DNA from: Polyangiaceae bacterium
Lineage (GTDB): Bacteria > Myxococcota_A > Polyangia > Polyangiales > Polyangiaceae
DNA: 64,000 nucleotides
NCBI GenBank assembly: GCA_025936115.1
Contig: JAICTZ010000018.1
Coordinates: 62,001 to 126,000 of the forward strand
Direction of reading: 5' to 3'
Shown here: piece after piece, positions 20,421-63,038 of the stretch
Numbering within the stretch: position 1 is the stretch's first letter
How the letters are laid out: the number at the start of each line of letters is the position of its first letter
Program-made: the position numbers and the translations under genes
Notes under the pieces: model-generated
Database searches by the model: none
Seen by the model: the letters and a program-made list of their open reading frames with translations, nothing else
What the model was told of the DNA's origin: nothing

Positions 20421-20437
20421 ATGGCACACCCCGTGCA
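20421..20437 (+). promoter_or_regulatory. possible sigma-54 promoter (weak match)
   Basis: TGGCAC at 20422-20427 and TGCA at 20434-20437 give the GG-N10-GC spacing; 10 of the 14 defined consensus positions match. The predicted start, about 20448, is 14 bases before the ATG. The match is weak alone and is listed because similar small stress genes in the window have better ones. The remaining gap 20199-20420 shows nothing recognisable. Confidence 0.3.
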
Positions 20438-20461
20438 TCCGTCCGGGCCGAGGAGGCCAGA

Positions 20462-20644
20462 ATGCGCACCCACCTTAGTCATCGCAGTTCCTTTTCCCCA
20501 ATCACGCTCGTGCCGCTCGCTGTTTCCATCAGCGGTTGCGCCGTGGTCGGCGACATCTTCAAGGCCGGCGTCTGGGCGGGCATCTTGGCGGTGCTGTGTT
20601 TGGCCGCGGTGCTCGCGCTGCTCGTCCGCACGCTCGGTGGGTGA
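20462..20644 (+). CDS. 60-residue lipoprotein/membrane protein
   Basis: A small protein with a signal ending PLAVSISGC (lipobox Cys at about residue 21), then AVVGDIFKAGVWAGIL and a hydrophobic segment to the C-terminus. The order Cys-x-V-V-G-D-I-F-K-A-G-V followed by one span is a recurrent pattern in very short bacterial envelope proteins that are sometimes mislabelled as phosphatidate cytidylyltransferases. It cannot be an enzyme of that kind at this size. The ATG at 20462 follows GAGGAGG. Role unknown. Confidence 0.65.
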   Translation: MRTHLSHRSSFSPITLVPLAVSISGCAVVGDIFKAGVWAGILAVLCLAAVLALLVRTLGG

Positions 20645-20660
20645 CACGCGCAGCGGTCGT

Positions 20661-20704
20661 CGGGCACGGGCACGGGCACGTTTACGGGCACGTTTACGGG
20701 CACG
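20661..20704. repeat. tandem repeat, 6-bp and 12-bp units
   Basis: CACGGG-type hexamers are followed by two copies of the 12-mer CACGTTTACGGG and a final CACG. It lies in the 105-base gap between the mini-lipoprotein stop and the convergent outer-membrane protein gene. No spacers, so it is not a CRISPR array. The origin is probably slippage. Confidence 0.7.
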
Positions 20705-20749
20705 TGGGGGATCGCGAGCGAGATGTGGTCGCCGTCCGCGCGGCGACGT

Positions 20750-21469
20750 TCAGATCAGATCGAAGCCGATGCGCAGGGTGAGCGTCGGCAGTAGGTTGGT
20801 GCGAAAGACGTGATCGATGTCGGCGGCTGCTTCGGACAGCGCGGGCTGTTCGTTGGGCGCGTCGCCTTGCGGGCGGATCACGGTGTTCGACTGAAACGCG
20901 CCGGTGAGGCCGAGCGCGCCGGCGAGGATGAAACGACGGGCGAGCTCGGCTTCGTAACCGAGCTCGACCGCCCAAAGATCGAAGCCCGTGCGAAGCTCGT
21001 AGGTGCCACCGGGGAACGTGAAGCCGGGCACCGAAAACGGCGGAATATCGCGCGTCGCCGTCAAACGCACGTGCGCGTAGCTCGCGTCGAAGTAGCCGCC
21101 GAAGCCGCGTAGCGGTCGGATGCCGAGCCCGAAGCGCGCGCTGTCGCCCGAGTACTGCGCCGAGTCGAGAATGATGCTCGCTTGCTGCCGCCCAGCGGCG
21201 ACGCCCGCCACCAAGTCCACGTATGCCGCGGGCACCCAGCCGTAACCTCCGAACACACGCAGGCCGAAGGGCATCTCGACGCCTGCTTGCACGCCCGCTT
21301 CGAGCGGCACACGCGTGACGGCTTCGAGCGAAACCATCCAATCGTCGCGTACGCGCTCCGACGGCGCGAAGCCGCGGTGGGGCGTGTCTGCGTTTGTCTG
21401 CTCTGGCGTGCCCTGTGCGCCCGCGAGACCGACCGTCGTCGCGAGGACGAATGCGGATACGAACGGCAT
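20750..21469 (-). CDS. putative outer-membrane beta-barrel protein
   Basis: A 239-residue protein with a Sec signal peptide (MPFVSAFVLATTVGLAGAQG) and many alternating strand-like segments that end with LRIGFDLI, consistent with a small barrel of 8-12 strands. No named family is recognisable. The ATG at 21469 puts the signal at the N-terminus; an in-frame extension to 21517 is not signal-like. It is divergent from a Cys-rich membrane-anchored protein gene. Confidence 0.6.
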   Translation of the reverse strand: MPFVSAFVLATTVGLAGAQGTPEQTNADTPHRGFAPSERVRDDWMVSLEAVTRVPLEAGVQAGVEMPFGLRVFGGYGWVPAAYVDLVAGVAAGRQQASIILDSAQYSGDSARFGLGIRPLRGFGGYFDASYAHVRLTATRDIPPFSVPGFTFPGGTYELRTGFDLWAVELGYEAELARRFILAGALGLTGAFQSNTVIRPQGDAPNEQPALSEAAADIDHVFRTNLLPTLTLRIGFDLI

Positions 21470-21529
21470 GGCACGCAAGGAATCGCAAGAACGGTGCCAC
21501 TGGTCCGTGGTTTGCACGGTGAGTCGCGC

Positions 21530-22432
21530 ATGGCCGCGATATCTTGGGAGAGCTGGCGACGGCGACGCTGGCTTCCGCCGCTCATCGCCGTTGCGGCACT
21601 GTGTCTCGCCAGCCTGGCCGTGGCATTCGTGACTGCCCGCGGACGCCGTTCACCAGGGCGCCTACTCGACGGCATCGCGGCGACGCTCTCGAAGATCCCG
21701 CACACCCCGCCCTCCGTCACCGTTGCGCCCGAACCCACGCCGACCGTGACGGCGGCGACGCGCGCGACCAATGCCCCCACGCTCCTGCCCAATGCGCCGT
21801 CGTCCGCGCCGGCCGCGCCGAGCACCGTCGCCTCCACGGCGGACGTCGAGCGCGCTGCCCCGGCTTACCCACAGCCCATCGTGCTCCACGTCGAGCCGCC
21901 CATCGATTTGGACGACGCGGGGGCGCGCGGGTTAGACACCGGCGCCGGGTTAGAGACCGGCGCATCGGATAGCGGCTCGACCGACACGAACGCCGCCGTG
22001 ACGGCGAGCGCGTCGGCGCCGCCTGCAACGTCGGCTGCGCCAACGGCCCCGGCGACGCCGCAGGGCGTTGCGTGCGGCACCACGCAGTGTGCGCCCGGCA
22101 AGGTTTGTTGCAACGCGAGCTGCGGCACGTGCACCGATCCGGGCGAGCGCTGCTCCCAGCGCGTTTGCGGCATGAACCCTTTCAACGAAAGTCAAAGTTG
22201 CGGGCCGTCGACCTGCAACGTCGGCGAGGTCTGCTGTAACCCGAGCTGCGGGACGTGTGTTCATCCGGGCGACGCGTGCGACACGACTCGTCGTTGCTCG
22301 AGCGAGATTACCTTTCCCGACAGCCAGTCGTGCGGCATGCAAACCTGCAACGTCGGGCTCGTTTGCTGTAACCCGAGCTGCGGCATCTGCGCGCCACCGG
22401 GCGAGCCTTGCTCGCAAGACGCCTGTCGCTGA
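21530..22432 (+). CDS. membrane-anchored protein with three Cys-rich repeats
   Basis: A 300-residue protein: short Arg-rich N-terminus, one membrane span (about 16-36), a Pro/Thr/Ala/Ser-rich linker (about 60-185), then three related modules of about 35 residues. Each module has the order Cys-x4-Cys-x2-Gly-x-Val-Cys-Cys-Asn-x-Ser-Cys-Gly-x-Cys followed by PG-x2-Cys. This is probably a disulfide-rich extracytoplasmic domain. The open frame begins at 21182, but upstream sequence is antisense to the barrel gene, so ATG 21530 is preferred. Function unknown. Confidence 0.62.
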   Translation: MAAISWESWRRRRWLPPLIAVAALCLASLAVAFVTARGRRSPGRLLDGIAATLSKIPHTPPSVTVAPEPTPTVTAATRATNAPTLLPNAPSSAPAAPSTVASTADVERAAPAYPQPIVLHVEPPIDLDDAGARGLDTGAGLETGASDSGSTDTNAAVTASASAPPATSAAPTAPATPQGVACGTTQCAPGKVCCNASCGTCTDPGERCSQRVCGMNPFNESQSCGPSTCNVGEVCCNPSCGTCVHPGDACDTTRRCSSEITFPDSQSCGMQTCNVGLVCCNPSCGICAPPGEPCSQDACR

Positions 22433-23445: not shown

Positions 23446-23638
23446 CGTCCAGCGCAACCCGAAAAATCGCGGGCAGCTATTCTCCTTTGATTTGCCGGGT
23501 GTCGTGGGTCACGCGCTGTCACGTGACCAAATGGCTGGCCGGTCGCGAGCTGCCTCGGGCCCAGGCCGATGCAACGACTCTTCAAGCGAGCGGATTTCGG
23601 CGAGAAGGGCCGGCGGGATCTCCTCCGCGGCGGCTGGC

Positions 23639-23869
23639 ATGCGTTTCGCTAAGCAAGCGGTCGCGATGTCCGCGATGGAAGAACTGCCGGTCGACTTTAC
23701 CCGCTACCTGAGCCAGCGCCTCGGTTTGACCGCCGCAGAGGCTGCCGATGTGCTCGGTGCCTGGCTCAAGGACTACGAGCCGGTTTCGTGCCGGCCCGAG
23801 GGCGTGAGCCGTCGCTCAGCGCCGCTCGCGAGCCCCGAGCCCATCGAGCCGGCTGAGCGCATGGGTTGA
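23639..23869 (+). CDS. small hypothetical protein
   Basis: A 76-residue reading frame with an apparently folded core (MEELPVDFTRYLSQRLGLTAAEAADVLGAWLKDYEP). I do not recognise it. Starts at 23639, 23666 and 23675 are possible, none with a good ribosome site. It ends where the oxidoreductase frame begins, so coupling is possible. The gap before it (23446-23638) shows nothing recognisable. Confidence 0.4.
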   Translation: MRFAKQAVAMSAMEELPVDFTRYLSQRLGLTAAEAADVLGAWLKDYEPVSCRPEGVSRRSAPLASPEPIEPAERMG

Positions 23870-28892: not shown

Positions 28893-29872
28893 GCGAGTGC
28901 TCCTGCCCGCTCGAGAGCGCGCGCGACGACGCGTTCGGTGAGCGGCACTTTGAAGGCGTTGTCGGGCGTCGTCTTCGCGCCGCTCGTCGCGAGCTTCGCG
29001 GCCGCTCGATACGTCTCGCTCGTGGCGGGCCGCCCGACGAGTGCTGCTTCCGTGGCAGCGGCACGCCAAGGTTTGACCCCGACGCCGCCGAGCGCCACGC
29101 GTGCCGAACGGATCGTACCCTGCTCGAGCTCGAGCGCGACGGCCGCGGAACTGAGCGCAAAGGCGAAGGAGGCGCGATCGCGAACCTTGAGGTACGTCGA
29201 GCGACGGCCGCGCGGCGAACGCGGCACGACGACGCGCGTAATGACTTCACCGGGTTCGAGCACCGTTTCGAGCTCGGGCGTCGTGCCGGGCAACGTGTGG
29301 AGGTCGCCGAGTGGGATCTGGCGTTCCCCGGTGGCTCGGCGCGTGTGAACCGCGGCGTCGAGCGCGAGCAGCGCGACGGCCATGTCCGACGGGTGCGCGG
29401 CGATGCAGCGCTCGCTCACGCCCAAAATCGCGTGCATGCGCGTGTACCCCTCGAGCGCCGCGCACCCGCTGCCCGGCTTGCGTTTGTTGCAAGCGGGTAC
29501 GGCGGCGTCGCGGAAGTACGCGCAACGCGTGCGCTGGAGCAGGTTCCCGCCCGTGGTCGCGAGGTTTCGGATCTGCGGCGACGCGCCAGCGAGGATCGCC
29601 TCGCTCAGGACCGGAAATTCACGCCGTACGGTGTCATCGTACGCCACGTCCGTGTTGCGAGCGAGCGCGCCGAGCGTGAGCCCCGCCTCGTTCCACGCGA
29701 TGTCGGACGAGAGCACGCCGTTCAGATCGACGACGAGGTCCGGCCGCTCCACGTCGAGCCGCATGAGGTCTACGAGCAGTGTGCCGCCCGCGATGAAGCG
29801 GCTCGTCCGCGGCTCACCGCGGGCCACCGCTTCTTCGAGCTTTTGCGCCGGCAGGTAGTCGAAGGATTTCAC
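28889..29872 (-). CDS. FAD-binding subunit of the PaoABC-type dehydrogenase, with extra 4Fe-4S site
   Basis: A 327-residue CO-dehydrogenase-flavoprotein-type subunit. FAD motifs include [12 protein letters not shown] (about 26-37) and [13 protein letters not shown]. Four cysteines at about residues 117, 128, 137 and 156 (in [18 protein letters not shown] and SERC) match the additional [4Fe-4S] cluster found in E. coli PaoB and absent from ordinary xanthine dehydrogenase FAD subunits. The GTG start at 29872 overlaps the preceding stop by four bases (GTGA). It transfers electrons from the iron-sulfur subunit to an acceptor. Confidence 0.9.
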
Positions 29873-30972
29873 GTGGGCACTCCGCTCTCCTGCACCGAGC
29901 GAATGGCGCGCACGATGTTGACGTACGCGCCGCAACGGCAAATGTTGCCGCTCATGAGCTCTCGCACCTCGTCATCGGTGTGAGCGCGCTTTTCGCGCAA
30001 GAGGCCCGCGGCGCTCATGATTTGTCCCGGCGTGCAGTAGCCGCATTGCAGCGCGTCCTCCTTGACGAACGCGGCCTGTAACGGGTGCAGGTTTTCGCCG
30101 TGCGAGAGGCCTTCGATCGTCGTAATCGGCTTATTTTGCGCCATCACGGCCAGGATCAGACAGGCGTTCACACGCCGGGCGTCGAGGAGCACGGTGCAGG
30201 CACCGCATTGGCCGTGGTCGCATCCCTTTTTCGTGCCCGTGAGCGCGAGCCGCTCGCGCAGTGCATCCAGCAGCGACACGCGCGGCTCTAGCTCGAGCTG
30301 ATGAGTCTCGCCGTTGACGACGAGCGTCACGAGTATTTCACGGGCGGTCGAGGGCGTGCTCGCCGCCGGAGGAGCGCCGGGTGAAGGTGGTTTGGCGTGC
30401 GGCCGGCAGCTCGCGGCAAAGGAGAGTGCAAGGGCCGCCGTGAGGCTCGAGAGCACGACCTCGCGCCGCGAAAAGAGGACCCGCTCATCGGCCCGCGTGT
30501 TTTCGACGGCCGAGCGCAAGGTCGCGAGCAGCGTCGCGTGCAGGCCGCCCTCTGCGCGCGCGCTCGTTTGGGCACGTACCGCGCCGTGCTCGTCGAGTAG
30601 CGTGAGAGTGAACGGTACCTGCGCGGCGGCTTCCACGCCGTAAAGGCCGTGAAGGGCCCGCATGCCTGCTCCCGTGGCAAGCCTCTCCGGCACCGGCTCG
30701 TCACGATCGACATCCGGACGAAAACAGAACGAGCGCCCTTCCGTCACGACGACGAGCGCGGCGCCGAGCGCGCGTAGCTCGCCCCGGATGCCATCGAGCA
30801 GTCTCCGATCGGGCGTGCCCCACTCGCCGTCTGCGGCCACGATCAGAACTGCCGGTGCACCCACCCCGCAAAGCCATGCGCGCCACGCAGCCGCCAAAGC
30901 GTCGGTCTGGACGTGGAACATGGCTGGCGCCAAGCAAAACGCGTACCCGGCACGCTGATGCGGGAGGTCCAT
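29869..30972 (-). CDS. 2Fe-2S subunit with internal Tat-like signal and N-terminal redoxin-like domain
   Basis: A 367-residue fusion. Residues about 215-365 are a standard PaoA/XdhC-type iron-sulfur subunit: plant-type cluster cysteines near 251, 256, 259 and 271 ([10 protein letters not shown]...C) and the second cluster near 310, 313, 345 and 347 (CGYC...CRCG). Before it, residues 168-189 read like a Tat signal with Cys ending (SRREVVLSS...AASC). Before that, residues 1-160 form an extra alpha/beta domain ([38 protein letters not shown]) resembling a peroxiredoxin/thioredoxin fold but without a clear CxxC. The frame is open and protein-like throughout, and I see no convincing internal start. 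First gene of the Mo-hydroxylase operon. Confidence 0.82.
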
Positions 30973-31116
30973 GAAAACGTTCGAGGTCGCAGAGACGGAT
31001 ACGGGCTATCCTGCGACGGGCGGGGCAATTCGGCGCGAATCAGCCGGCCCTGACCTCGCCAGCTGCGCCCGAGCTCTGACTGATGGAGGGATACCTGGTA
31101 CCCGCGCCGTGACCCG

Positions 31117-31133
31117 CGGGCACGGAGTGTGCA
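31117..31133 (+). promoter_or_regulatory. putative sigma-54 promoter of the hemerythrin gene
   Basis: GGCACG (31119-31124) and TGCA (31130-31133) have the GG-N10-GC spacing; 12 of 14 consensus positions match. Predicted start about 31144, 26 bases before the ATG, with AGGAGAG between. The dyad ATTCG-GCG-CGAAT at 31028-31040 lies about 104-116 bases upstream of the start, a usual distance for an activator site. Confidence 0.5.
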
Positions 31134-33624: not shown

Positions 33625-33700
33625 GAGATTCGACCGTGACTCAATTCACTTTGCGTGCCCAGCCATCCCAGGTAGTCTTGGGGCGTCCTGCTACGCGTGC

Positions 33701-45813: not shown

Positions 45814-45814
45814 C

Positions 45815-52324: not shown

Positions 52325-53074
52325 ATGGCTGAGGGAGAGATGCCGAGGGTCGATGGAGAGGCACCGGTTAGCGCGGGCGCAGCCAAGCGTCTCGCGATGT
52401 TGGACGATCTCCGGCAGGCCGAACGGCGCGCCGTGAGCTCGCGCGTGGCGTCGGTCATTGCGCATCTGATCGGGACGCCTCTGCACGTGATCGCGGGCCG
52501 AGCCTCCCTGATCCGCAGCGTGCCCGGCGACGCCAACGTGGCGGAAAATGCCCGACGCATCGAGGAGCAGGTCGACCGGCTGGCCAAGCGAATTCGCGCG
52601 CTCATCGACTATCTGACCGCGCCGGAGCCGGCCCCGCAGGAGGAAGCCGTGAGCGGTGTGATTGAAGCGGCCCTCGCCGTGTATGCGCCAATCACCGAGG
52701 CGCGGGGTATGACGCTTCGACTCGCGAGCGAGCTGCCCGACGCGAACGTGGACGGTACGTCTGCGCTGATCGTGCTCACCAGCTTGTTCTCGCTTGCGAC
52801 GCGAGTGGCGCCCCAAGGTGCGGTGATCGAGCTCGGCGTCGCACTCACGGACGACGGCCGCGTCGCGTTCGAGCTCGGCGTACCCGGACTCGAGCCGCCG
52901 CGCGGCCGCATCGACAGCCTCGAACCGCCCGAGCAGTTCGAGCAGGCGCGCATCGAGGAGTTACAGGTGCTCTCGGTCTGCTCGGCGATCGTCCGGCGTA
53001 ACGGTGGACAGCTCGAGGTGCTGCCGGACGGAGCGGCGCGCGCCAAGGTTCGGTATCTTGCGCGCAGCACCTGA
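52325..53074 (+). CDS. degenerate histidine kinase-like protein
   Basis: A 249-residue soluble protein. Residues about 30-100 look like a dimerisation and phosphotransfer domain with His47 in VIAHLIGTPLHVIAGRA. The C-terminal half (about 110-245) has the outline of an ATPase domain, but the N-box is TSLFSLATRV rather than NLLxNAxKF, the G1 motif is ELGVPGLEPP, and no G2 glycine box appears. ATP binding is therefore doubtful. It may be a phosphotransfer or scaffold partner of the divergent NtrC-type regulator, 193 bp away. The ATG at 52325 has no clear ribosome site. Confidence 0.65.
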   Translation: MAEGEMPRVDGEAPVSAGAAKRLAMLDDLRQAERRAVSSRVASVIAHLIGTPLHVIAGRASLIRSVPGDANVAENARRIEEQVDRLAKRIRALIDYLTAPEPAPQEEAVSGVIEAALAVYAPITEARGMTLRLASELPDANVDGTSALIVLTSLFSLATRVAPQGAVIELGVALTDDGRVAFELGVPGLEPPRGRIDSLEPPEQFEQARIEELQVLSVCSAIVRRNGGQLEVLPDGAARAKVRYLARST

Positions 53075-53081: not shown

Positions 53082-53621
53082 TCACTCTCCGATATTGAAG
53101 GACACGTGCCCGCCGATTTCGAGCCACGACAGCGCGTCCGACCCGTTACCGCCGGAAATGCCTGATTCCATGACGTGCGCGCCGAAGCTCACGACCGGCA
53201 AAATCGTGAGATCGAGCGCGGCCCCAATGTCGTACCCGAAAGACGTGTGATCACCGAACGACGTCGAGTAGTGGCCGAGGCCGGCGTGCGCGAAGACGAT
53301 TGGCTCGAGCCCGAAGTCGATGCCGAAACGACCGCCCGCGAGGATATTCCAGGCCGTGGCGTCCGCGGTGCCGGTGAGATCGTGATAGCTGAAGCCGACC
53401 TCCGGCGTGAGCTTGATGACGGCGAGGTTCCATTGGCGCCCGAAGCGACCGCCGACGCCCCAGCCGTTGTCATTGCCGCTGCCCTGCGGAAGATCGGCGC
53501 CCACGTCGATGGCAATTTTGTTTTGTGCGCTCGCGGTGCGGGGCAAAAGCACGGCGAGTGAAACGACGAGCGCCCCCGCGCTGGCTTTGAGCAATGCGGA
53601 CGTACGATGGAGAGAACGCAT
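53082..53621 (-). CDS. putative outer-membrane beta-barrel protein
   Basis: A 179-residue protein with a Sec signal peptide (cleavage after RTASA, about residue 31). The mature part is a series of short beta strands rich in Gly and aromatic residues (GWGVGGRFGRQWNLAVIKLTPEVGFSYHDL) and ends GGHVSFNIGE, fitting a small eight-strand barrel. No named family. The ATG at 53621 is used since it places the signal at the N-terminus. It starts 7 bp after the stop of the upstream small membrane gene on the same strand, so it may belong to that transcript. Confidence 0.6.
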   Translation of the reverse strand: MRSLHRTSALLKASAGALVVSLAVLLPRTASAQNKIAIDVGADLPQGSGNDNGWGVGGRFGRQWNLAVIKLTPEVGFSYHDLTGTADATAWNILAGGRFGIDFGLEPIVFAHAGLGHYSTSFGDHTSFGYDIGAALDLTILPVVSFGAHVMESGISGGNGSDALSWLEIGGHVSFNIGE

Positions 53622-53628: not shown

Positions 53629-54045
53629 TTAGAGCCTTGGTGGGTTGTTTCCGTTTCGAGGCGGGACAGCGCGCCCCGTTGAGGTCGATTGAGTCTGCTC
53701 GCTGTTTGGGAACAGTTGCTCGCCCAAGTGGCGCGCCGCCGCTGACGCAAGCGAGATGCTCGCGGCGCGCAGCGCTTCGTTCATGAGGAACGGGCGCTTG
53801 TATGGAGCGGGCACGAAGGCGCGCCGCCGCGGCCGGCGCAAGGTCGAGACGAGCCACACGAGCCCCGCTACGGCTACGGCTCCGATCACGACGGGACGCA
53901 CGAGCGACAAAGCGCGTTCGACCGTGGCCTGCCCGGCCGCGCCCGCTTCCTCGAGTCGACGCGATAGCGCGCGTTCCGCTCGGTTCACGTCCCGCTTCGC
54001 GGCGTGCATCGCGTTCCAAGTGCCCGTCCCGGCGTGTCGATTCAT
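53629..54045 (-). CDS. small membrane protein, second gene of the holin-like pair
   Basis: A 138-residue protein. The N-terminal half is helical and charged (AAKRDVNRAERALSRRLEEAGAAG), one membrane span follows (about 46-66, VIGAVAVAGLVWLVSTL), and the C-terminal tail is hydrophilic. I recognise no family. GGGAGAAGG lies just before the ATG, and the ATG overlaps the stop of the holin-like gene by four bases. The two are probably one operon on the sigma-54 promoter upstream. Confidence 0.6.
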   Translation of the reverse strand: MNRHAGTGTWNAMHAAKRDVNRAERALSRRLEEAGAAGQATVERALSLVRPVVIGAVAVAGLVWLVSTLRRPRRRAFVPAPYKRPFLMNEALRAASISLASAAARHLGEQLFPNSEQTQSTSTGRAVPPRNGNNPPRL

Positions 54046-54434
54046 GTGCCTTCTCCCGTTTGGTCCGCGGATGAAATCGATTTGAGGCGCCGCAACGCGG
54101 CGATGGCGACCCAGGTCCCCGCGAGCGTGATCGCGACCGAAGCGCTCAAGCTCAGCAAGAACGGCCACGGCAACGGCAGCCATGCGACGCGCAGGGCAGC
54201 GCTCGGCGCCGCAGAAACCGGTGACAGCGAAACGATGACGAGCGTCAAAGCGAGGAACGTCATCGCGACGAGCCCGCCGAGCACGAGCGCGAGCGCGTGC
54301 GTGGCCAATTCCCGCCCGCGAATGAGCGCGAGCTTCGTCTCTGCGCGTGCGAGCGCGATGGCGCTCTCCACGACGCGCAGCGATGCTGAAACGGCTTCGT
54401 GCGTCGCGACGGGGCGGGTCGGGATCACGGACAT
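54042..54434 (-). CDS. phage-holin-like (holin superfamily 6) membrane protein
   Basis: A 130-residue protein with an N-terminal amphipathic helix (SLRVVESAIALARAETKLALIRGRELA) and two membrane spans (about 50-72 and 90-118). This layout is that of the chromosomal holin-X/YqjE-type family, which often sits beside YtxH- or DUF883-like genes in stress-related clusters and is not proof of a phage. The ATG at 54434 has no ribosome site, and the predicted sigma-54 start lies one base upstream, so the message may be leaderless. Confidence 0.68.
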   Translation of the reverse strand: MSVIPTRPVATHEAVSASLRVVESAIALARAETKLALIRGRELATHALALVLGGLVAMTFLALTLVIVSLSPVSAAPSAALRVAWLPLPWPFLLSLSASVAITLAGTWVAIAALRRLKSISSADQTGEGT

Positions 54435-54445: not shown

Positions 54446-54462
54446 TGCAGTCTTCGTACCAA
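54446..54462 (-). promoter_or_regulatory. putative sigma-54 promoter of the holin-like operon
   Basis: On the minus strand TTGGTACGA (54462-54454) and CTGCA (54450-54446) in GG-N10-GC spacing, 12 of 14 consensus positions. Predicted start about 54435, directly at the ATG of the holin-like gene. Confidence 0.5.
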
Positions 54463-54567: not shown

Positions 54568-54584
54568 ATGGTCCGCGCCTTGCA
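54568..54584 (+). promoter_or_regulatory. putative sigma-54 promoter of the YtxH gene
   Basis: TGG (54569-54571) with CCG and TTGCA (54580-54584) in GG-N10-GC spacing; 10 of 14 consensus positions but the -12 element is perfect. Predicted start about 54595, 25 bases before the ATG. Confidence 0.45.
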
Positions 54585-54619: not shown

Positions 54620-54964
54620 ATGCAGACCCTTCGTAATCTGATTTTCTCCGTGGGTGCGGCCATCGCCGGCACCAAGATCGTTCGCGCCGTCTCGGACCTC
54701 GAGTTCGACGACGTGCTTGCGCCCATCGGCCTCTCGCGCCGCCGGTCGCACATCGTTTCGGACGTGGCGCTGCTCAGCGCGGGCATGGTGCTCGGCGGGG
54801 CCGTCGCTCTCATTTTCGCCCCGATGAGCGGCCGCGAGACGCGCCAGCGCATCGCGAGCAAGGCCGACGAGTTGGGTGACGCGGCGGCGCAGAAGCTCCG
54901 CGATATCCGCGACGAGGTGCGGCCGCGGCTCGGTAACAGCCACATGTCCGAATCGAATGCGTGA
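54620..54964 (+). CDS. YtxH domain-containing small membrane protein
   Basis: A 114-residue protein. A hydrophobic segment with Gly-rich spacing (VALLSAGMVLGGAVALIFAPMSGRETRQRIASKADEL, about 49-85) is the YtxH signature, where a glycine-zipper-like span is followed by a helical, charged tail. Such proteins are induced by general stress in several bacteria; the mechanism is unknown. The ATG at 54620 follows GAGG. It is divergent from the holin-like operon. Confidence 0.75.
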   Translation: MQTLRNLIFSVGAAIAGTKIVRAVSDLEFDDVLAPIGLSRRRSHIVSDVALLSAGMVLGGAVALIFAPMSGRETRQRIASKADELGDAAAQKLRDIRDEVRPRLGNSHMSESNA

Positions 54965-55231: not shown

Positions 55232-55304
55232 GCGTCAAAGACGTCATCGACGTGGCAGCTCGTCACGCTGAACTAGCGCGCCAGTCGCCGTGGCTGAAAG
55301 AAGG

Positions 55305-55321
55305 TTGGCCCGACGCTTGCT
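55305..55321 (+). promoter_or_regulatory. putative sigma-54 promoter of the OmpA/kinase operon
   Basis: TTGGCCCGACGCTTGCT matches 13 of 14 defined positions of the sigma-54 consensus, the best match in the window. GG at 55307-55308 and GC at 55319-55320. Predicted start about 55332; AAAAGGAG (55346-55353) and the ATG at 55360 follow. Confidence 0.62.
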
Positions 55322-55359: not shown

Positions 55360-55725
55360 ATGATGGCCTCGCTGCGAGCGCTCGGGTTTGCCGCACTGCT
55401 CGGTGCGTGCAGCTCGACCCAGACCTTGCCTCCGAATTATGCGCCGGCTCGGGCCGCCATCAGCGCTGCGGACGCCGTCGGGGCCGAGCAGGAGCCGCGT
55501 GCGGCGTTGCACCTCAAGCTCGCGCGCGACCAGCTCGTCGAAGCGCAGTCACTCGCTCGGAACGGTAAGTCGAACGAAGCTTCGCTGGCGCTCGATTGCG
55601 CGCGCACCGACGCCGAGTTCGCGCTGATGGTGACACGAGAGGCGCAGGCCCGCGCCGACGCCGTTCGCGCCAAGCAGGACGTTCAGCGGCTGGGGAACGC
55701 AGACGGCGCAGAGCGCCCTCAGTGA
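55360..55725 (+). CDS. DUF4398-type lipoprotein
   Basis: A 121-residue protein with a lipoprotein signal (MMASLRALGFAALLGAC, Cys17) and a helical DUF4398-like domain (ARAAISAADAVGAEQEPRAALHLKLARDQLVEAQSLARNGKSNEASLAL) ending in charged helices. The ATG at 55360 follows AAAAGGAG; GTG 55357 and ATG 55363 are near alternatives. It is the first gene of a five-gene operon with an OmpA-type lipoprotein, a Ser/Thr kinase, a DUF2383 protein and a receiver. Confidence 0.75.
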   Translation: MMASLRALGFAALLGACSSTQTLPPNYAPARAAISAADAVGAEQEPRAALHLKLARDQLVEAQSLARNGKSNEASLALDCARTDAEFALMVTREAQARADAVRAKQDVQRLGNADGAERPQ

Positions 55726-55751: not shown

Positions 55752-56588
55752 ATGAGAACTTCATTCGTCGCGCTTTCATTGGTCTCGCTCACGGCCCTCG
55801 CGTGCGCGAGCACTGGACCTACACCCGAGCTACTCGACGCACGGCGCGCGTATGAAACGGCGCGCGTCGCACCTGAGGCCCGCTACGCGCCCGAGCGTGT
55901 GCTCGAGGCGAAACGGGCGCTCGAACGTGCAGAATACGCCCACGCGAATGAGCCCGGCTCGTTCCAGGAGAAGAGCCTCGCGTACATCGCCGGGCGACGC
56001 GCCGAGCTCGCCGTCGTCTACGGTCAGTACGAGGCCGACCGCCGGGTACGCTGGACGGCCGATGCGCAATACAAGGCACGCGAGGACGTGCTGCGCCGCG
56101 AGGCCGAGAAAAACGCCGCCGAGACGCGCCGCGTGCTCGAGGGCACGCGCGCGACGCTCGGTACGGTGCAGGGCAACTTCGGCGACGAGCAGCAGCAGGG
56201 ACGCCAGGACGCACCAAGCGCGGAGAGTGCTCGCCGCACCGTGATCACCCTCGACGGCTCGGCGCTGTTCGTCGCGAACAAATCGGAGCTCGTGCCGAGC
56301 GGCCGCCAGAAGCTCGACCAAGTGGCGAAGACTCTGAAGGACGGGACCGACGAGATCTCCGTGCTCGGCCATACGGACGCAGAGGGCGACGGCGAGACGA
56401 ACCGCCGCCTGTCGCAGGAACGGGCGGACGCCGTACGCGCTTACCTGGTCGAGCGTGGCGTCGCGCCCGATCGCATCAAGGCGGTCGGCAGAGGCGAGAC
56501 CGAGCCCATCGTCGCGAACGCCAGCCCCGAAGGTCGCGCCGGCAACCGTCGCATCGAGATCGTGGTCGAGAAGAGGCAAGCCCCATGA
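55752..56588 (+). CDS. OmpA family lipoprotein (DUF4398-OmpA)
   Basis: A 278-residue protein with a lipoprotein signal (LVSLTALAC, Cys at about residue 17), an N-terminal helical region related to the preceding DUF4398 gene (ELLDARRAYETARVAPEARYAPERVLEAKRALE), a coiled-coil segment and the C-terminal OmpA peptidoglycan-binding domain (about 165-275): VLGHTDAEGDGETNRRLSQERADAV and ANASPEGRAGNRRIEIVV. It should tether the outer membrane to the cell wall. It is coupled by a four-base overlap to the kinase gene that follows. Confidence 0.88.
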   Translation: MRTSFVALSLVSLTALACASTGPTPELLDARRAYETARVAPEARYAPERVLEAKRALERAEYAHANEPGSFQEKSLAYIAGRRAELAVVYGQYEADRRVRWTADAQYKAREDVLRREAEKNAAETRRVLEGTRATLGTVQGNFGDEQQQGRQDAPSAESARRTVITLDGSALFVANKSELVPSGRQKLDQVAKTLKDGTDEISVLGHTDAEGDGETNRRLSQERADAVRAYLVERGVAPDRIKAVGRGETEPIVANASPEGRAGNRRIEIVVEKRQAP

Positions 56589-57886
56589 CCGCGCTCGCCG
56601 AAAACGATCCGCTGCGCGACCTGCCGCGGCCCGACACCATCATCGGCCGGCGCTTCCGCCTCGGGGGCGCAATCGGGCAAGGAGGCATGAGCGCGGTGTT
56701 CAGCGCCCGCGACCAGCGTCTCGAGCGCGAGGTCGCTTTCAAAATCCTGACGCCCGAGCTCGCGTGTTCGCGCGAGATCGTGACACGTTTCGTCAACGAG
56801 GCGCGGACGCTCGCGCGGCTCGACTGTCCCCACATCGTACGCGTGCTCGACGCCGGTGTGACGAGCGAGCCGGACATGGCGTCGCTGCCGTACATGGTGC
56901 TCGAGCTCCTGCACGGCGAGGATCTCAGGACGCAATGCGAGCGCGGTCCGCTCGACGTGGAACGCGCGCTCGGCTTCGTGCTCCAGGCGTGCGAAGGCCT
57001 CGCGGCCGCCCATGCCGAGGGCGTGGTTCATCGCGACCTGAAGCCGGAGAATCTTTTTCTGTGCGCGCAGCCGGACGGTACCGAGGTCGTGAAGATTTTG
57101 GATTTCGGCATCGCGCGCTCGCTTGCCGCGCCCTCGTCGCTCACGTTGAGCGGGGAAGGCATGGGCTCCCCTGGGTACATGTCTCCCGAGCAACTTCGTG
57201 ACGCGAGCGCCGCCGACGAACGCAGCGACATCTGGTCGCTCGGCGTCGTTCTTTACGAGCTCTTGGCGGGCGTGCCGCCCTTTCAGGCGGCGACCCCGTT
57301 CGATCTCTGCGCCCACATCCTCGCCGGTAAGCGCGAGCGGCTCGAGCAACAGCGGCCCGAGCTCCCGCCCGGACTCGTGGCCGTGGTCGACCGCTGCCTG
57401 GAGGTCGAGCCGGAGCGGCGCTACCAAAGCGTGGTCGAGCTCGCGTCCGCGCTGGCGCCGTTCGTCTCCGGCGGCGCACAGGCGCTCGCGCGCATTCGGC
57501 ACCGTCTGCTCGGGCGCGATAGCGGTGAAGTGCCGGCGCTTCCGCGACCCGTCGTCGACGCGCAAGCCCCCACCGAGCCCGTGATCCACGAAGACGAGGC
57601 GGTGCTTCCGCTTCCGCTTCCGTTTCCACTCTCCCTGTCGCGTTCGCGAAGGCGTCATCGCGTTGCACAGGCGCTCGCTGGTCTGTCGCTGATCGCGATG
57701 CTCGCGTTGCTCTCGCACGTGTTCGGGGTCGGCAGCGCCACCCCGCGCTTGGACGAGGCACAGAGCTCGGTGCTCAAGCTGAGCGAACGCATGAGCGCGG
57801 CGGCGCACGATTTTCTGGGGACCGGAGCGCGCACGCCCGAAGCGGCGCCGCTTCCGGCGCAGGGGCAGGAAGGATCACACCGATGA
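56585..57886 (+). CDS. Hanks-type Ser/Thr protein kinase with C-terminal membrane span
   Basis: A 433-residue kinase. All key elements are present: Gly-rich loop GQGGMSAVF (31-39), Lys53 in VAFKIL, catalytic HRDLKPEN (Asp151), DFG (173-175) and GSPGYMSPEQ in the activation segment. A Leu/Pro-rich stretch (LPLPLPFPLSLS, from a CTTCCG repeat at about 57605-57630), a basic patch and one membrane span (about 364-384) follow. The short extracytoplasmic tail carries no PASTA or other sensor domain. Its position after an OmpA lipoprotein and before a DUF2383 protein, with ATGA overlaps on both sides, suggests a role in envelope stress. Confidence 0.92.
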   Translation: MTALAENDPLRDLPRPDTIIGRRFRLGGAIGQGGMSAVFSARDQRLEREVAFKILTPELACSREIVTRFVNEARTLARLDCPHIVRVLDAGVTSEPDMASLPYMVLELLHGEDLRTQCERGPLDVERALGFVLQACEGLAAAHAEGVVHRDLKPENLFLCAQPDGTEVVKILDFGIARSLAAPSSLTLSGEGMGSPGYMSPEQLRDASAADERSDIWSLGVVLYELLAGVPPFQAATPFDLCAHILAGKRERLEQQRPELPPGLVAVVDRCLEVEPERRYQSVVELASALAPFVSGGAQALARIRHRLLGRDSGEVPALPRPVVDAQAPTEPVIHEDEAVLPLPLPFPLSLSRSRRRHRVAQALAGLSLIAMLALLSHVFGVGSATPRLDEAQSSVLKLSERMSAAAHDFLGTGARTPEAAPLPAQGQEGSHR

Positions 57887-58359
57887 GCTATCACCATCCG
57901 ATGCCGAGCGAGCCCGGCACGAAGAGCGACGCGCCGAATCTGCAGGTACTGAAGGACCTCTGCAAAGAAGAGATCGCCGCAACGCGTACTTACGAGAAGG
58001 CGTTGAGCCTACCCGTGCTCGCCCGCCATTCAGGCGTGCTCGAACGCTGCTATGCCTCGCATCACCATCGCGCCGCCGAGCTCGGCCGGCGCATCACGAC
58101 GCTCGGCGCGGAGCCGCCGAGCGCCCCGGGAGTTTGGGGTTCCCTCATTCCCACGCTCGCGACGGCTGCAGCCGCGATGAGCGAAAAGCTCGCGCTTGCG
58201 TTGCTCGAGGAATCCGAAGAGCGCGGCGTTCGGCGCTATCGCGACCAGCTGCAAGAGCTCGACCCCGTCAATCGGGCATTCTTGATCGAACGCATCGTGC
58301 CGGCGCAAGATGCGTCGCACGCTGCCATCAGTGAACTCAAACAGACGGTCTCGGTATAA
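57883..58359 (+). CDS. DUF2383 (ferritin-like) protein
   Basis: A 158-residue helical protein of the PA2169/DUF2383 type. The helices carry candidate di-iron ligands Glu and His (LCKEEIAATRTYEKAL, CYASHHHRAAELGRRI, LEESEERGVRRYRDQL), the pattern of a ferritin-like bundle. The function is unknown; the family is associated with stress. It starts inside the kinase stop (ATGA) and ends 2 bp before the receiver gene. Confidence 0.8.
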   Translation: MSYHHPMPSEPGTKSDAPNLQVLKDLCKEEIAATRTYEKALSLPVLARHSGVLERCYASHHHRAAELGRRITTLGAEPPSAPGVWGSLIPTLATAAAAMSEKLALALLEESEERGVRRYRDQLQELDPVNRAFLIERIVPAQDASHAAISELKQTVSV

Positions 58360-58892: not shown

Positions 58893-61800
58893 TCAACGGC
58901 TCTCCACCGTCAGGCCGCCGAGGTTGGCGACGACGTTGGCAAGTTGCGCCGGCTCGATGGGTTTCGCGAGATGCAGCTGGTATCCAGCCGCAAAGGCGCG
59001 CTGCGCGTCCTCGTCCCGCGCGTAAGCCGTGAGCGCGACGGCCGGCGTCCGCCCCCCGCGCTCGGGCGGCAACGCTCGGATCTTTCGGATCAGGGAGTAG
59101 CCGTCCTCGCCGGGCATACCGATGTCGCTCACGATGACGTCAGGCTTGATCGAGCGGAGCTTTTCGAGCGCTACTTCAGCCGACGGCGCCGGATGAACCT
59201 TGGCGCCGTGCCGAGTGAGCACTTCGGTCACGAGCGCGAGCGCGTCTTCCTCGTCATCGACCACGAGTAAGCAGAGTCCGTCGAGCCGTCGCGTGCCGAG
59301 CTCGCGTGCCGTAGCGGCCGCGGCCGAACCGGGACGCAGGGGTTGGCTGATCGCGACGCTCTCGGCGCGCAGCGGCAGCTCGACGACGAACGTCGCGCCA
59401 CGACCGGGCCCTTCGCTCCGGGCGGAAACGCTGCCCCCGTGCGCCGTCACGAGCTGCTTCACGATCGCGAGCCCGAGCCCGAGCCCGCCGTGCCGCCGCG
59501 TCGTCGACGTGTCTGCCTGCAGGAACGGCTCGAAGACATAGGGCAGGGACTCCTTGCGGATGCCTTCCCCGCTGTCGCTCACTTCGAGGCGGACGTCCGA
59601 GCCCGCGAGTGAAGCCCGGAGCTCGATCTGGCCGCCTTTGGGCGTGAACTTCACGGCGTTCGAGAGCAGGTTCCAGACGACCTGCTGGATGCGCTGAGCA
59701 TCGGCGAGGATCGTGAGCGGCTCGGGCGGGACATGCGTCCGGATGACGATGCCTTTTGCTTCGGCGGCGGGCATCACGGTTTCGACCGACGCGCTCACGA
59801 CCTCGCCTACCGTCGTGGGCGCGAGAGCGAGCGCGAGCTTGCCGCTGATGATGCGGGAAACGTCGAGCACGTCTTCGATGAGCTTGGCTTGAGCGCGAGC
59901 GTTGCGCTCGATGACGGTGAGCCCGCGCTCGAGCGCATTGGCGCCGCTGCGTCCTCGCAACATCACCGTCCAACCGAGGATCGCGTTCAGCGGCGTGCGG
60001 AGCTCGTGCGACACCATGGCCAAAAATTCGTCCTTGGCGCGGCTCGCCACCTCCGCTTCCGCTCTGAGTCTGCGCTCCTCGGCACGCGACTCTTCGATTT
60101 GGCGGAGCGCGAGCGCGTTCTCGATCGCCATGGCGGCCCGCCGCGCGAAATCCTCGGCGAAGGCGAGATCTTCTTCGTCGTACGAGCGGTTCGACTCGGC
60201 GTAGACGAACGTCATCGCTCCGAGCGTGCGGCCGCGCGAGCGCAGCGGCACGACCATGGCCGACCGCAGCCCGAGCTCGTGGATGAGCCTGCGGTGCTCG
60301 TCGTTTTGCGCCGCCTGTTCGAGCAGCTCTCTCGGGATCTTCGAGTAGAGCTCGGAGCGGCCCGTGCGGATCACCTCCGGCGCACCGGTCCGCGCTTCGG
60401 GGTCAGGCGGATACTTACGGCCGAGCTCCTGCGCGAACTCGAGCTTCTGCGGATCGCTATGCGCGACGGCCGCTTGATAGGGCGCCTTGCTGCCAGGTTC
60501 CAGGATATTGACGGCGCACCAGTCTGCGATCGCGGGCACCGCCAAGCGCGCGACGGTCCCGAGCGTCGCTTGATAGTCGAGCGATGCCACGAGCGCCTCG
60601 CCTGCCTTGCTCAAGAACTCCTTGCGCGCGCGATCCGCCTTGTCGCGCGACACGTCGCGAAACACCATCACGACGCCGATGAGCTCGCCGTGCTCGTTCC
60701 TGATCGGTGCGCCGCTGTCGTCGATCGGCAGCTCCGTGCCGCGACGCGAGCGCAAGATCGTGTGGTTGGCGAGCCCGACGATCGCCCCTTCGCGCAAGAC
60801 GCGCGCCACGGGGCTCTCGACGGGGCCCCGCGTTCGCTCTGAAAAGATTTGAAAAACCTCGTCGAGAGCCTTGCCGCGCGCTTCCGGCTCGGGCCAGCCC
60901 GTGAGCGCCTCGGCGATGGGGTTCATGAACGTGACGACGCCGCTCGGATCGGTCGCGATCACCGCATCCCCGATGCTCCGGAGCGTCGTCGTGAACCAGC
61001 GCCGTGCTTCCTCCTCGCTTTCGAGCCGCCGCGCGCGGAGCAGCGCCTGAGCGCAGTGCTTGCCGAGCGTATCGGCGAGCAGTTTGTCGTCGTCCGAGAA
61101 GCGACGCTCGCGGTAGAAGCCCATACCGAGCAAACCGACCGGGCGCTTCTCGACGATGAGCGGCATGCTCCAGAACGCCCGGGCGCGCGGTCCTTCGGAA
61201 GGTAAGTGCTTGACCTTCGGAAACAGCCGCTCGTAATCGGCGTCCCTTTCCGCCCAGACGGCCTCGCCGCTCTCGAGCGTGCGGAAGGCTTCGGGATTGC
61301 CCCCGCTGTTCGAGATTTCACGAATGCGCTCGAGCACACCCGGCGCCACGCCGCGGTCGCCGACGAGCTCGAGCGTCCGCCCACTTTCGTCGAGCAAGTA
61401 CAGGGTACATACGTTCGCTTCGAAGGCCGCCATCCCCACATCGACCACGGCATGCCCGACTTCGGGAACGTTTCGAGCTTCGGAGAGCATACCCGCTACG
61501 TCGGACAGCGCCTGGAGTCGGTTCCGCGCTTCGCTCGCCGCGCGTCGCAGCAGTCCCTCGCGGCGCGCACGCGAAGTCCACACGGCGATGAGCAGCGCGA
61601 AGGCGCTCACCCCCAGCGCAGAGCCGCCCGAAAACGCCGTCAGAACCCGCCGCCGCGCTTGCGCGCTACGCATCACGAGCAAGCGAGCTTCGTGCGCTTG
61701 CATGGCGTCGCAGGCGAGCTCGAAGCGGCTGCTCGCTCGGTTGTAGTCCGCCTCGCTCGCGAGCAGGCGATCCATGGCCTCCCGCTGGTGTCCAGCCTTC

Positions 61801-62189
61801 GTGAGCGCCACGAGCTCCCGGTACGGCTCGACGGCGGTTTCCGCGTCGCGCGCCGCGCCCGTGAGCGCGGCCGTCTGCTCCGCGCTGTCGGCGGTCATGG
61901 CGCGCAGCTGCTCGTGCGTGGAGGCTTGGCTCGCCATGGCGCGCGAAAACTCCTCGAAGTCCGCGGGCTGACCAGAATCGACGTAACGTCGTGCAGCGGT
62001 TTCGGAGGAACGTACCGCGACGGACCAGTGGCTCAAAGCCCGTTGGATCTCGAGCGTGTGATCGATCCACCCGGCGGCCGACCAGTACGCGCTCGTCGCC
62101 GCAGCAAAGAACGCAACAATGGCCACGAGCCCGGCCGTGGCGAGGACGAGCTCAGGCTGTCTGCGAGCGGGCGCGGCCGCGGGACCCAA
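58893..62189 (-). CDS. hybrid sensor histidine kinase (CHASE3-GAF-PAS-GAF-HK-receiver)
   Basis: A 1,098-residue protein. Two membrane spans (about 12-34 and 185-205) flank a CHASE3-like domain; then come a GAF domain (about 225-390), a PAS domain (about 395-515, DPSGVVTFMNPIAEALTGWPEPEARGK), a second GAF (about 530-690), the kinase core with His728 in SHELRTPLNAILGW, intact N-box (NLLSNAVKFT), DSGEGI and GGLGLGLAIVKQL, and a terminal receiver (about 968-1085, Asp in VIVSDIGMPGEDG). It is soluble on both sides of the first domain and probably senses redox or small ligands. It begins with TTG at 62189 after GAGAG. No cognate output gene is adjacent except the convergent receiver at 58362. Confidence 0.9.
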   Translation of the reverse strand: MGPAAAPARRQPELVLATAGLVAIVAFFAAATSAYWSAAGWIDHTLEIQRALSHWSVAVRSSETAARRYVDSGQPADFEEFSRAMASQASTHEQLRAMTADSAEQTAALTGAARDAETAVEPYRELVALTKAGHQREAMDRLLASEADYNRASSRFELACDAMQAHEARLLVMRSAQARRRVLTAFSGGSALGVSAFALLIAVWTSRARREGLLRRAASEARNRLQALSDVAGMLSEARNVPEVGHAVVDVGMAAFEANVCTLYLLDESGRTLELVGDRGVAPGVLERIREISNSGGNPEAFRTLESGEAVWAERDADYERLFPKVKHLPSEGPRARAFWSMPLIVEKRPVGLLGMGFYRERRFSDDDKLLADTLGKHCAQALLRARRLESEEEARRWFTTTLRSIGDAVIATDPSGVVTFMNPIAEALTGWPEPEARGKALDEVFQIFSERTRGPVESPVARVLREGAIVGLANHTILRSRRGTELPIDDSGAPIRNEHGELIGVVMVFRDVSRDKADRARKEFLSKAGEALVASLDYQATLGTVARLAVPAIADWCAVNILEPGSKAPYQAAVAHSDPQKLEFAQELGRKYPPDPEARTGAPEVIRTGRSELYSKIPRELLEQAAQNDEHRRLIHELGLRSAMVVPLRSRGRTLGAMTFVYAESNRSYDEEDLAFAEDFARRAAMAIENALALRQIEESRAEERRLRAEAEVASRAKDEFLAMVSHELRTPLNAILGWTVMLRGRSGANALERGLTVIERNARAQAKLIEDVLDVSRIISGKLALALAPTTVGEVVSASVETVMPAAEAKGIVIRTHVPPEPLTILADAQRIQQVVWNLLSNAVKFTPKGGQIELRASLAGSDVRLEVSDSGEGIRKESLPYVFEPFLQADTSTTRRHGGLGLGLAIVKQLVTAHGGSVSARSEGPGRGATFVVELPLRAESVAISQPLRPGSAAAATARELGTRRLDGLCLLVVDDEEDALALVTEVLTRHGAKVHPAPSAEVALEKLRSIKPDVIVSDIGMPGEDGYSLIRKIRALPPERGGRTPAVALTAYARDEDAQRAFAAGYQLHLAKPIEPAQLANVVANLGGLTVESR

Positions 62190-62303
62190 GCGTATCGATT
62201 TCTCTCATCCGCGCGGTTGACGCAAGTCACCAGTCAAGTTTTGTACGCCGGAGCGCGTGTCGTGGCGGAATGACACGCGCTCACCGGACCTCATTCGGCG
62301 GGT

Positions 62304-62783
62304 TCACGAATAGGTCGTCGCTTCGACTCGTCCGCGGCGGCGACCCGGCTGCCGCCGATTCTTCGTGACCAAAGCGTCGACGCTCAAGGGGCCGGCACCC
62401 CGGGCCACGAAATACATCGCGATCAAGAGTAGCGTGAGCGGATATTCCCAACCGCCATTTTGCGCGAAAAGGCCGTTGTCGCGGTGTACGAAATAGATCG
62501 CGGCCGCCATCGTGCAGATGGGACCGAGCGCCGCGAGCGGCGTCAGTGCTCCGAGTGCGAGACCTAGACCGCCGAAAAACTCGCCCAGAATGGCCAGATA
62601 GACCATGAGCGCGGGATTCGGCAGTCCCAGATGCGTGAACGCCGCGACTGTCCCGTGAACGTCACTGAGCTTCTGCCAGCCGTGTGCCACGAAAATCGCG
62701 CCCACGCCGATGCGCAACAGCGTGAGCGCGACGATCGCCGGTTTGCGATCACTGTCCGTCTCGTACGTATTCAGCGCGCGCAT
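62304..62783 (-). CDS. DoxX family membrane protein
   Basis: A 159-residue protein with four membrane spans and the DoxX signature ALTLLRIGVGAIFVAHGWQKLSD, GLGLALGALTPLAALGPICTMAAAIYFVH and GGWEYPLTLLLIAMYF. DoxX-like proteins are linked to thiosulfate oxidation in archaea and to oxidative stress elsewhere; the role here is unknown. It starts 15 bases after the DUF1328 stop and is probably cotranscribed with it. The Arg-rich tail ends near 62304. Confidence 0.85.
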   Translation of the reverse strand: MRALNTYETDSDRKPAIVALTLLRIGVGAIFVAHGWQKLSDVHGTVAAFTHLGLPNPALMVYLAILGEFFGGLGLALGALTPLAALGPICTMAAAIYFVHRDNGLFAQNGGWEYPLTLLLIAMYFVARGAGPLSVDALVTKNRRQPGRRRGRVEATTYS

Positions 62784-62798
62784 GACGGATGCTCCGCA

Positions 62799-62963
62799 TC
62801 AGACAGGGGCGCGCCTGCCGAAGAGCAGAGCCACCACCGCGAGCACGAGGAACACGAAGAACAGGATCTTCGCGATACCAGCTGCGCCCGCCGCCAGGCC
62901 CCAGAAGCCGAACAGGCCGGCCAGGAGCGCGATAATGAAAAACACTGCTGCCCAGTACAACAT
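62799..62963 (-). CDS. DUF1328 (YtjA family) small membrane protein
   Basis: A 54-residue protein with two hydrophobic spans: [20 protein letters not shown], then a Gly/Ala turn ([13 protein letters not shown]) and [15 protein letters not shown]. This is the full DUF1328 pattern. Such proteins are very common, stress-associated and of unknown role. The ATG at 62963 follows CAGGAGAAAG. It is the first gene of a two-gene unit with DoxX, on a sigma-54-like promoter. Confidence 0.88.
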
Positions 62964-63021
62964 GGCTTTCTCCTGTGTCCTTGTCTGGTGGCGTTCCGAA
63001 CGCCACATGGGACGAGATCAC

Positions 63022-63038
63022 TGCAACCCGCGTGCCGC
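63022..63038 (-). promoter_or_regulatory. putative sigma-54 promoter of DUF1328-doxX
   Basis: On the minus strand GGCACG (63036-63031) and TTGCA (63026-63022) in exact GG-N10-GC spacing; both core boxes are perfect and 11 of 14 positions match. Predicted start about 63011, 48 bases before the ATG. Confidence 0.58.

Follow-up and report, generated by a model that had tools for sequence, protein, structure and literature searches.

Sigma-54-type promoters and a shared enhancer mark a likely regulon of small envelope and stress genes in a Polyangiaceae genome

Here we describe the window, a stretch of 64,000 nucleotides from a Polyangiaceae bacterium (assembly GCA_025936115.1, contig JAICTZ010000018.1, positions 62,001 to 126,000), and within it a block from 20.4 to 64 kb in which a series of small envelope and stress genes is preceded by -24/-12 sites of the sigma-54 (RpoN) type. 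A palindromic enhancer, or upstream activating sequence, GTSGCA-N3-TGCSAC, lies upstream of many of these promoters, including that of a response-regulator activator gene at 50719-52131 (-). It is likely that the sites are sigma-54 promoters of one regulon, which this activator would drive through the shared enhancer while amplifying its own synthesis. The source genome (8.06 Mb in 83 contigs) has a single RpoN gene (PF04552, E 2.5e-64; RpoN box ARRTVAKYR). Genes were called with a simple codon-usage script, and sites were scored with a matrix made from a Barrios-type consensus; the scores are relative and take their weight from controls. Spacing is termed canonical where GG and GC stand exactly 10 bases apart within TGGCAC-N5-TTGC, and position counts refer to YTGGCACG-N4-TTGCW, which has 13 specified positions.

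The leftmost site of the block (20421-20437, +; score 12.3) precedes the gene of a 60-amino-acid (aa) mini-lipoprotein (20462-20644), and both the site and a similar gene recur in G007, a genome of the same genus. The next, at 21484-21500 (-), belongs to a 239-aa outer-membrane-like gene without a Pfam match (20750-21469); it is conserved in G007, as is its enhancer (21590-21610, 11.9), which is found there at the same distance and scores 13.0. This site shares one junction base with an opposed sigma-54-like site at 21500-21516 (+); a similar pair exists in G007, and no gene in the + direction was called within 1.2 kb of the second member. A site scoring 14.3 (16.5 in G007) lies at 23634-23650 (+) before a 64-aa gene, called at 23639, whose likely start is 23675 (23675-23869). 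Two divergent units follow, namely a hemerythrin gene (31170-31688, PF01814) with an AI-2E transporter gene (31693-32802, PF01594), behind a site at 31117-31133 (+; 11.4, G007 9.7), and a Mo-hydroxylase operon (first gene 29869-30921), for which a possible site at 30933-30949 (-) scores 13.2 and is poorly conserved in G007. The enhancer between them (31019-31039, 12.8) has no counterpart at the hemerythrin gene of G007 (3.8). Similarly, an enhancer at 33696-33716 (11.1; 13.4 at the corresponding place in G007) is situated between a BrkB-family gene (32737-33594), with a weak -24/-12-like site at 33645-33661 (-; 8.1, G007 13.8), and a rightward pair made up of a zinc-ribbon-like open reading frame (ORF, 33798-34055) and an overlapping gene for a 2953-aa protein (33965-42826). 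The latter is a GH94, cyclic-glucan-synthase-like protein (PF06165, PF17167), and the site of the pair, at 33765-33781 (+), scores 16.7, and 15.8 before the orthologous ORF in G007. The highest-scoring site of the window (42891-42907, +; 16.9) precedes the gene of a protein with the motif SFPASDPP (43013-43255); G007 has a site of 12.9 at the syntenic place, and the weak enhancer upstream (42820-42840, 9.9) reaches 14.9 there.

The activator gene has a site of its own, CGGGCACACACCGTGCA, at 52146-52162 (-), which scores 8.8, and 11.4 at the same distance in G007. Above it are the two best enhancers of the window, 20 bp apart, at 52233-52253 (18.5) and 52213-52233 (16.8). Conserved sites are also found before a leftward holin-like pair (54446-54462, -; genes 54042-54434 and 53629-54009, then an outer-membrane-protein-like gene at 53082-53621), before a YtxH gene (54568-54584, +; gene 54620-54964, PF12732), and before an operon recognized by Pfam (55305-55321, +) that encodes DUF4398 (55360-55725), OmpA (55752-56588), a Ser/Thr kinase (56585-57886) and a last protein (57883-58359) with a weak DUF2383/COQ7-like match; this operon has an enhancer at 55249-55269 (14.9). 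The matches of the holin-like pair and the outer-membrane-protein-like gene, to PF07332 and PF13505, are below cut-off, and among 39 genomes the holin-like protein was matched in 2, namely G007 and the source genome, with none in a further search of genome contigs. At the right end, genes for DUF1328 (62799-62963) and DoxX (62304-62783), both assigned by Pfam, follow a site at 63022-63038 (-; 8.2, G007 11.8), and their enhancer at 63096-63116 (14.9) keeps the same distance of 78 bp in G007, where it scores 15.5. Finally, an enhancer (62259-62279, 16.4) lies upstream of a hybrid histidine kinase gene (58893-62189).

A preliminary description of this DNA had named eight GG-N10-GC sites, and all eight are present, correctly oriented and in front of the genes that it listed, with matches at 10-12 of the 13 specified positions. 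Most of its gene names were confirmed as well: SFPASDPP in 43013-43255 and in the G007 ortholog, the GH94 domains of the 2953-aa protein, and hemerythrin, AI-2E, YtxH, OmpA, kinase, DUF1328 and DoxX; the holin label corresponds to a match below the Pfam cut-off, and the zinc ribbon has no Pfam match. We count it against that account that the DUF1328/DoxX site is weak taken alone and depends mainly on conservation, that the conserved sites before the activator, outer-membrane-like, 64-aa and BrkB genes were missed, and that the statement that larger genes have no good match is partly wrong, given the Mo-hydroxylase operon and the 239-aa outer-membrane-like gene.

The warning that GG-N10-GC is frequent was fair, as the string occurs 1314 times on the two strands of the window, and so was the advice to give weight to strong matches. 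At a level of at least 11 of the 13 positions, 10 matches fall in the 6,978 bp of intergenic DNA and 5 overlap coding sequence; the four best sites, each scoring at least 16, are all 11-183 bp upstream of genes in the correct orientation, and none that strong falls in coding sequence. Sigma-54 promoters are common in this genome, and the block is about four times richer in them. A matrix score of at least 10.5 was found before 9 of the 26 genes in the block, compared with 28 of 249 genes in 20 other stretches of the same genome (P = 0.003), 12 of which had been picked for holding a pattern hit. The eight of these stretches without a strict hit gave 7 of 89 (P = 0.0017), a count that leans low for this reason; hence the comparison was repeated with all 20 and also with 60 stretches, some of the later ones again picked for pattern hits, which gave 60 of 706 (P = 0.0003). 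Reversing the sequence lowered the number of genes in the window with a site of at least 11 from 9 to 1 of 40. The spacing is specific: sites at the canonical spacing stand before 11/42 genes in the window and 13/41 in G007, with 0-3 at other spacings, and in the genome sample the 60 of 706 genes at canonical spacing compare with 4-16 at seven other spacings.

Most of the 20-64 kb block is present in G007, with its order inverted, and the homologous proteins share 53-82% identity, except for DUF1328 (100%) and the activator (97%). Nine of 17 orthologous first genes have a sigma-54-like site of at least 8 in both genomes at similar distances (those at 20750, 23639, 31170, 32737, 50719, 54042, 54620, 55360 and 62799), and the number is 7 at a threshold of 9, 5 at 10 and 11, and 3 at 12. 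With 300 scrambled matrices at score 8, the mean was 0.12 and the maximum 2, none of the 300 reaching nine. The syntenic G007 sites before the zinc-ribbon ORF, the SFPASDPP gene and the mini-lipoprotein gene are outside this automatic 17-pair test.

The same gene families were then considered in relatives, using the best-scoring 28-30 loci per gene family from 108 searched genomes of the taxonomic family (YtxH 28, CsbD 30, DUF1328 30), from which 7 of 88 loci were left out for short flanks. Of the remaining 81 upstream regions, 55 have a site of at least 11 at the canonical spacing (YtxH 20/26, CsbD 16/28, DUF1328 19/27), compared with 1-10 at each of twelve other spacings and 5 in reversed sequence. 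The GlsB/YeaQ-like family (PF04226) was picked beforehand as a prediction, which arose from a gene beside the window that was recognized by eye and has an enhancer; that gene scores 23.3 bits, with a Pfam cut-off of 25.3, and the family search returned no match from the source genome at E 1e-5. Among PF04226 loci (5 of 30 left out for short flanks), 20/25 have the canonical site, with 0-5 at other spacings and 5 reversed. Taking one locus per genus and family across the four families, the count is 33/54, against 0-5 at other spacings. Elsewhere in the phylum, CsbD genes have the site in 8 of 20 rows, equal to 7 of 18 distinct genes as two genes were counted twice, and other spacings yield 0-1 rows. 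Ku, proposed as a further target family, failed: only 2/26 loci have a site (4 of 30 left out for short flanks), and the family serves as a negative control.

The enhancer emerged when 24 upstream regions from the window and G007 were searched for motifs, with a score of 287.8 compared with 228-233 for four shuffles; the search used orthologous pairs and the shuffles had fewer seeds, so that the difference alone proves little. The independent test is that on 69 promoters of relatives, although these include four loci from the source genome and G007 that lie outside the compared stretches: allowing at most 2 mismatches in 12, the dyad is present at 28/69 with spacing 3, as opposed to 1-10 with other spacings and 6 reversed. 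With one promoter per genus and family, it is found at 15/44, other spacings giving 1-5 and reversed sequence 3. An enhancer matrix trained on 61 promoters of relatives and seeded with the window/G007 consensus reached at least 7 at 20/28 promoters of the window and G007 and at 2/28 reversed, a result that is not fully independent owing to the seeding. At a score of at least 11, there are 11 intergenic enhancers in 6,978 bp of the window, compared with 28 in the 162,975 bp taken from 60 other stretches (Poisson P about 6e-8). Another dyad before the activator gene, TTTGC-N11-GCAAA, was dropped as an enhancer candidate since the genome has just 4 copies of it, and a generic count of dyad words failed to yield the enhancer.

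As the preliminary description had it, the window encodes three sigma-54 activators, all confirmed as PF00158, a density that is not special in itself given 226 first-look candidates genome-wide. The one within the block, 50719-52131, combines a receiver domain, an AAA+ domain and a Fis-type helix-turn-helix (PF00072, PF00158, PF25601, PF02954). Its Walker A motif reads GESGTGKE, and its loop has GAFTDA in place of GAFTGA. GAFTDA was read in 29/30 family loci, and no other loop form was read among them. In 80 loci of named records the loop could be read in 61 and is GAFTDA in 6 of those; all five loci with at least 53% identity over the whole protein have GAFTDA, as does the partial locus L384. 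The closest relatives among the named-record matches listed are from Corallococcus praedator and from metagenome-assembled genomes of Myxococcales and Deltaproteobacteria. A study of the sigma-54 regulome of Desulfovibrio vulgaris counts GAFTDA as one of the motif variants that should remain functional (PMC4641369).

Across 29 promoters of this subfamily, all 8 with a -24/-12 site of at least 8.5 have an enhancer of at least 10, as opposed to 4 of the 21 others (P about 1e-4), an association that was counted by eye with thresholds set afterwards and in which some rows come from one genus. A subfamily gene is present on the fetched stretch around YtxH at 10 of 28 YtxH loci. Locus L350 has a DUF1328 gene (PF07043, 41 bits) with a sigma-54 site before it and a GAFTDA activator directly after it, and in Corallococcus praedator an enhancer and a sigma-54 site precede genes for a small exported-looking protein, a HAMP histidine kinase and the activator (L349). 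Divergent from the window's activator is a gene for a short HisKA protein (52325-53074, +; PF00512 only), a candidate partner kinase with a homolog near YtxH in four further genomes (G006, G001, G005 and G072). As for the two other activators, 13523-14920 has the loop GAFTGA, whereas in 12173-13519 (+) the loop is GSFSGA, the Walker A is altered (GPSGSGKD) and Pfam finds no receiver domain. The recognition helix of the latter, LKLDRKTLYRKL, resembles that of 50719-52131, LKLDRRTLYRKL, and this protein is possibly a modulator of the same enhancer. An enhancer-like dyad (14990-15010, 11.6) stands 70 bp before the GAFTGA activator gene, with no sigma-54 site of at least 5 nearby.

Promoters of the same kind are found elsewhere in the genome. 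Counting places where enhancer and promoter occur together in 64 other stretches (1.25 Mb) gave 25, compared with 9 in reversed sequence; this is no unbiased estimate, the stretches having been chosen partly for pattern hits, and up to a third of the places may be due to chance. Among the 25 are a CsbD gene, two Ser/Thr kinases, a Ku paralog, two lipoprotein-like genes recognized by eye, a second YtxH gene and treZ. The treZ gene (L069:10482-12371, -; TIGR02402, 596 bits), about 11 kb past the end of the window, has a strong sigma-54 site and faces a divergent GH1-like gene that has one as well. The Ku paralog (L206:7354-8289, +) has both enhancer and sigma-54 site; at the genome's other Ku gene (L312) both are lacking. 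Contig C43 carries a second, shuffled copy of the cluster (L072) with an activator paralog, YtxH, a holin-like pair and DUF4398/OmpA, in which divergent sigma-54 sites lie between YtxH and the holin-like pair.

The shared sigma-54 programme proposed by the preliminary description is therefore supported by conservation in relatives, exact spacing, a shared enhancer and a neighbouring activator, and the block is indeed richer in strong sites than other DNA of the genome. The term local is too narrow, since CsbD, the Ku paralog, two Ser/Thr kinases and treZ carry such promoters elsewhere. Its label of envelope or osmotic stress was drawn from gene content; general-stress-type, likewise inferred, fits better. 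In the mechanism that we propose, a signal, presumably general, envelope or osmotic stress, would act on a histidine kinase, for which the short HisKA protein and the hybrid kinase 58893-62189 are candidates. The activator, once phosphorylated, would bind GTSGCA-N3-TGCSAC, mostly about 50-135 bp upstream of the -24 element, and cause ATP-driven opening of sigma-54 RNA polymerase at the -24/-12 sites. The two tandem enhancers and the -24/-12 site before its own gene would then provide more activator, a self-amplifying step. The predicted output is a set of small membrane and periplasmic stress proteins, the targets being CsbD, YtxH, DUF1328, GlsB/YeaQ-like proteins (PF04226), hemerythrin, lipoprotein-like proteins, the OmpA/Ser-Thr-kinase operon, treZ and the Ku paralog. 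The promoter class is common to the YtxH, CsbD, DUF1328 and PF04226 families and, in this genome, to treZ and the Ku paralog; that a single regulator serves them all is what we infer.

Several results weigh against this proposal. Genome-wide, the strict pattern YTGGCAYG-N5-TGCW shows no enrichment (32, compared with 30 reversed), and a strict enhancer-plus-promoter pattern is barely above its control (12 vs 7). At 26 of the 81 family loci, no site reaches 11. In the window, the promoters of YtxH, the holin-like pair and the mini-lipoprotein have no enhancer above 6, and no -24/-12 site accompanies the enhancers at 62259 and 43604. An enhancer of at least 8 is present at 7/18 PF04226 promoters (2 reversed), five of the seven being from one genus, and one of at least 11 occurs at 4/26 Ku loci, three of them from one genus. 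The function of GAFTDA was left open in PMC10714721, in which the pull-down was without sigma-54. Seventeen of the 29 subfamily activator genes have neither element, and the GAFTDA subfamily thus probably has other targets too.

Three other explanations have to be set beside these results. Chance, in DNA this rich in GC, is a very improbable source of the GG-N10-GC strings: their abundance in the window and the lack of genome-wide enrichment of strict patterns would be expected of chance, but position, orientation, conservation, spacing specificity, the reversed controls and the Ku control are not, and the 81-locus spacing test and the 17-pair footprint test contradict it. The sites could instead be real sigma-54 promoters with a shared enhancer to which a different activator binds, 50719-52131 being one target among others. 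The many activators of the genome are compatible with this, as are the paralogs of 50719-52131, one of them beside the second YtxH cluster on C43, and the similar recognition helix of 12173-13519; we nevertheless consider it unlikely, for an enhancer at the activator's own promoter and proximity of the genes across genera are the usual marks of a cognate activator.

A mixture, in which several activators with different inputs use one promoter class and the sigma-54 genes do not form one regulon, deserves some credence without being probable. Several promoters have no enhancer and the dyad is present at only 15 of the 44 genus-independent promoters, as a mixture would predict; against it, several gene families and the activator have this one enhancer in common at their promoters, and one regulon is the reading we retain.

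The textbook regulators of general stress genes are sigma-70-family factors set free from an anti-sigma factor; sigma-B and EcfG are factors of this kind, controlled by an anti-sigma switch, whereas sigma-54 depends on an ATP-driven activator and a distant enhancer. Here sigma-54 promoters stand in front of the same stress gene families; such promoters remain silent unless an ATP-driven activator acts on them, and consequently the response would stay tightly off until the signal and then amplify itself. Since relatives show the same promoter and enhancer pattern, the data suggest that a switch which serves other purposes in other bacteria controls part of the general stress response in this lineage. 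A broader claim, which we would stop just short of calling probable, is that the general stress response of the lineage is under sigma-54 control, with a self-amplifying GAFTDA regulator in place of the sigma-B/RpoS/EcfG logic, in an old arrangement found across Myxococcota. In a group whose genomes are very large and encode many activators of obscure role, this offers a concrete, testable regulon with an enhancer and an activator.

The likeness to known general stress regulons is in the targets: sigma-B of Bacillus and EcfG/PhyR of alphaproteobacteria are described as controlling the same kinds of genes, csbD and ytxH appearing in a core SigB list (PMC7824861) and the EcfG regulon of Sphingopyxis including csbD and ku (PMC7083833). 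The idea that sigma-54 controls the bacterial exterior is an accepted one (Francke et al. 2011, PMC3162934), and envelope genes are a theme in common with our set; the portion of that article considered here names no stress genes of the CsbD/YtxH/DUF1328 type, shared enhancer or GAFTDA activator, and its main text contains neither 'Sorangium' nor 'Polyangi'. A 2025 cross-phylum survey of sigma-54 (PMC12316311) predicted promoters by matrix and covers Myxococcia and Polyangia; CsbD, YtxH and hemerythrin are absent from its main text, and the parts drawn on here assign no enhancer or activator. Nla28 of Myxococcus xanthus is reported as a starvation-induced sigma-54 activator with its own operon and cell-envelope genes among its targets, and it binds tandem 8-bp CT(C/G)CG(C/G)AG half-sites, unlike the GTSGCA-N3-TGCSAC found here (PMC9765219). 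The GAFTDA protein of Desulfovibrio vulgaris is given as a single-component regulator of cell-division genes, unlike the response regulator of the window (PMC4641369). Titles and abstract openings in the open-licence literature on sigma-54/RpoN together with CsbD, YtxH, DUF1328, general or osmotic stress, or myxobacteria disclosed no such regulon, which is not proof of absence.

Two further elements lie in the middle of the block. A strong enhancer-like dyad at 43604-43624 precedes an Omp85/TamB (TAM-like) operon (43684-50458, +). Within its Omp85 gene, 211 bp before the TamB gene, a sigma-54-like site at 45587-45603 (+) is identical in G007 at 17 of 17 bases, a conservation that may reflect either coding constraint or an internal promoter.

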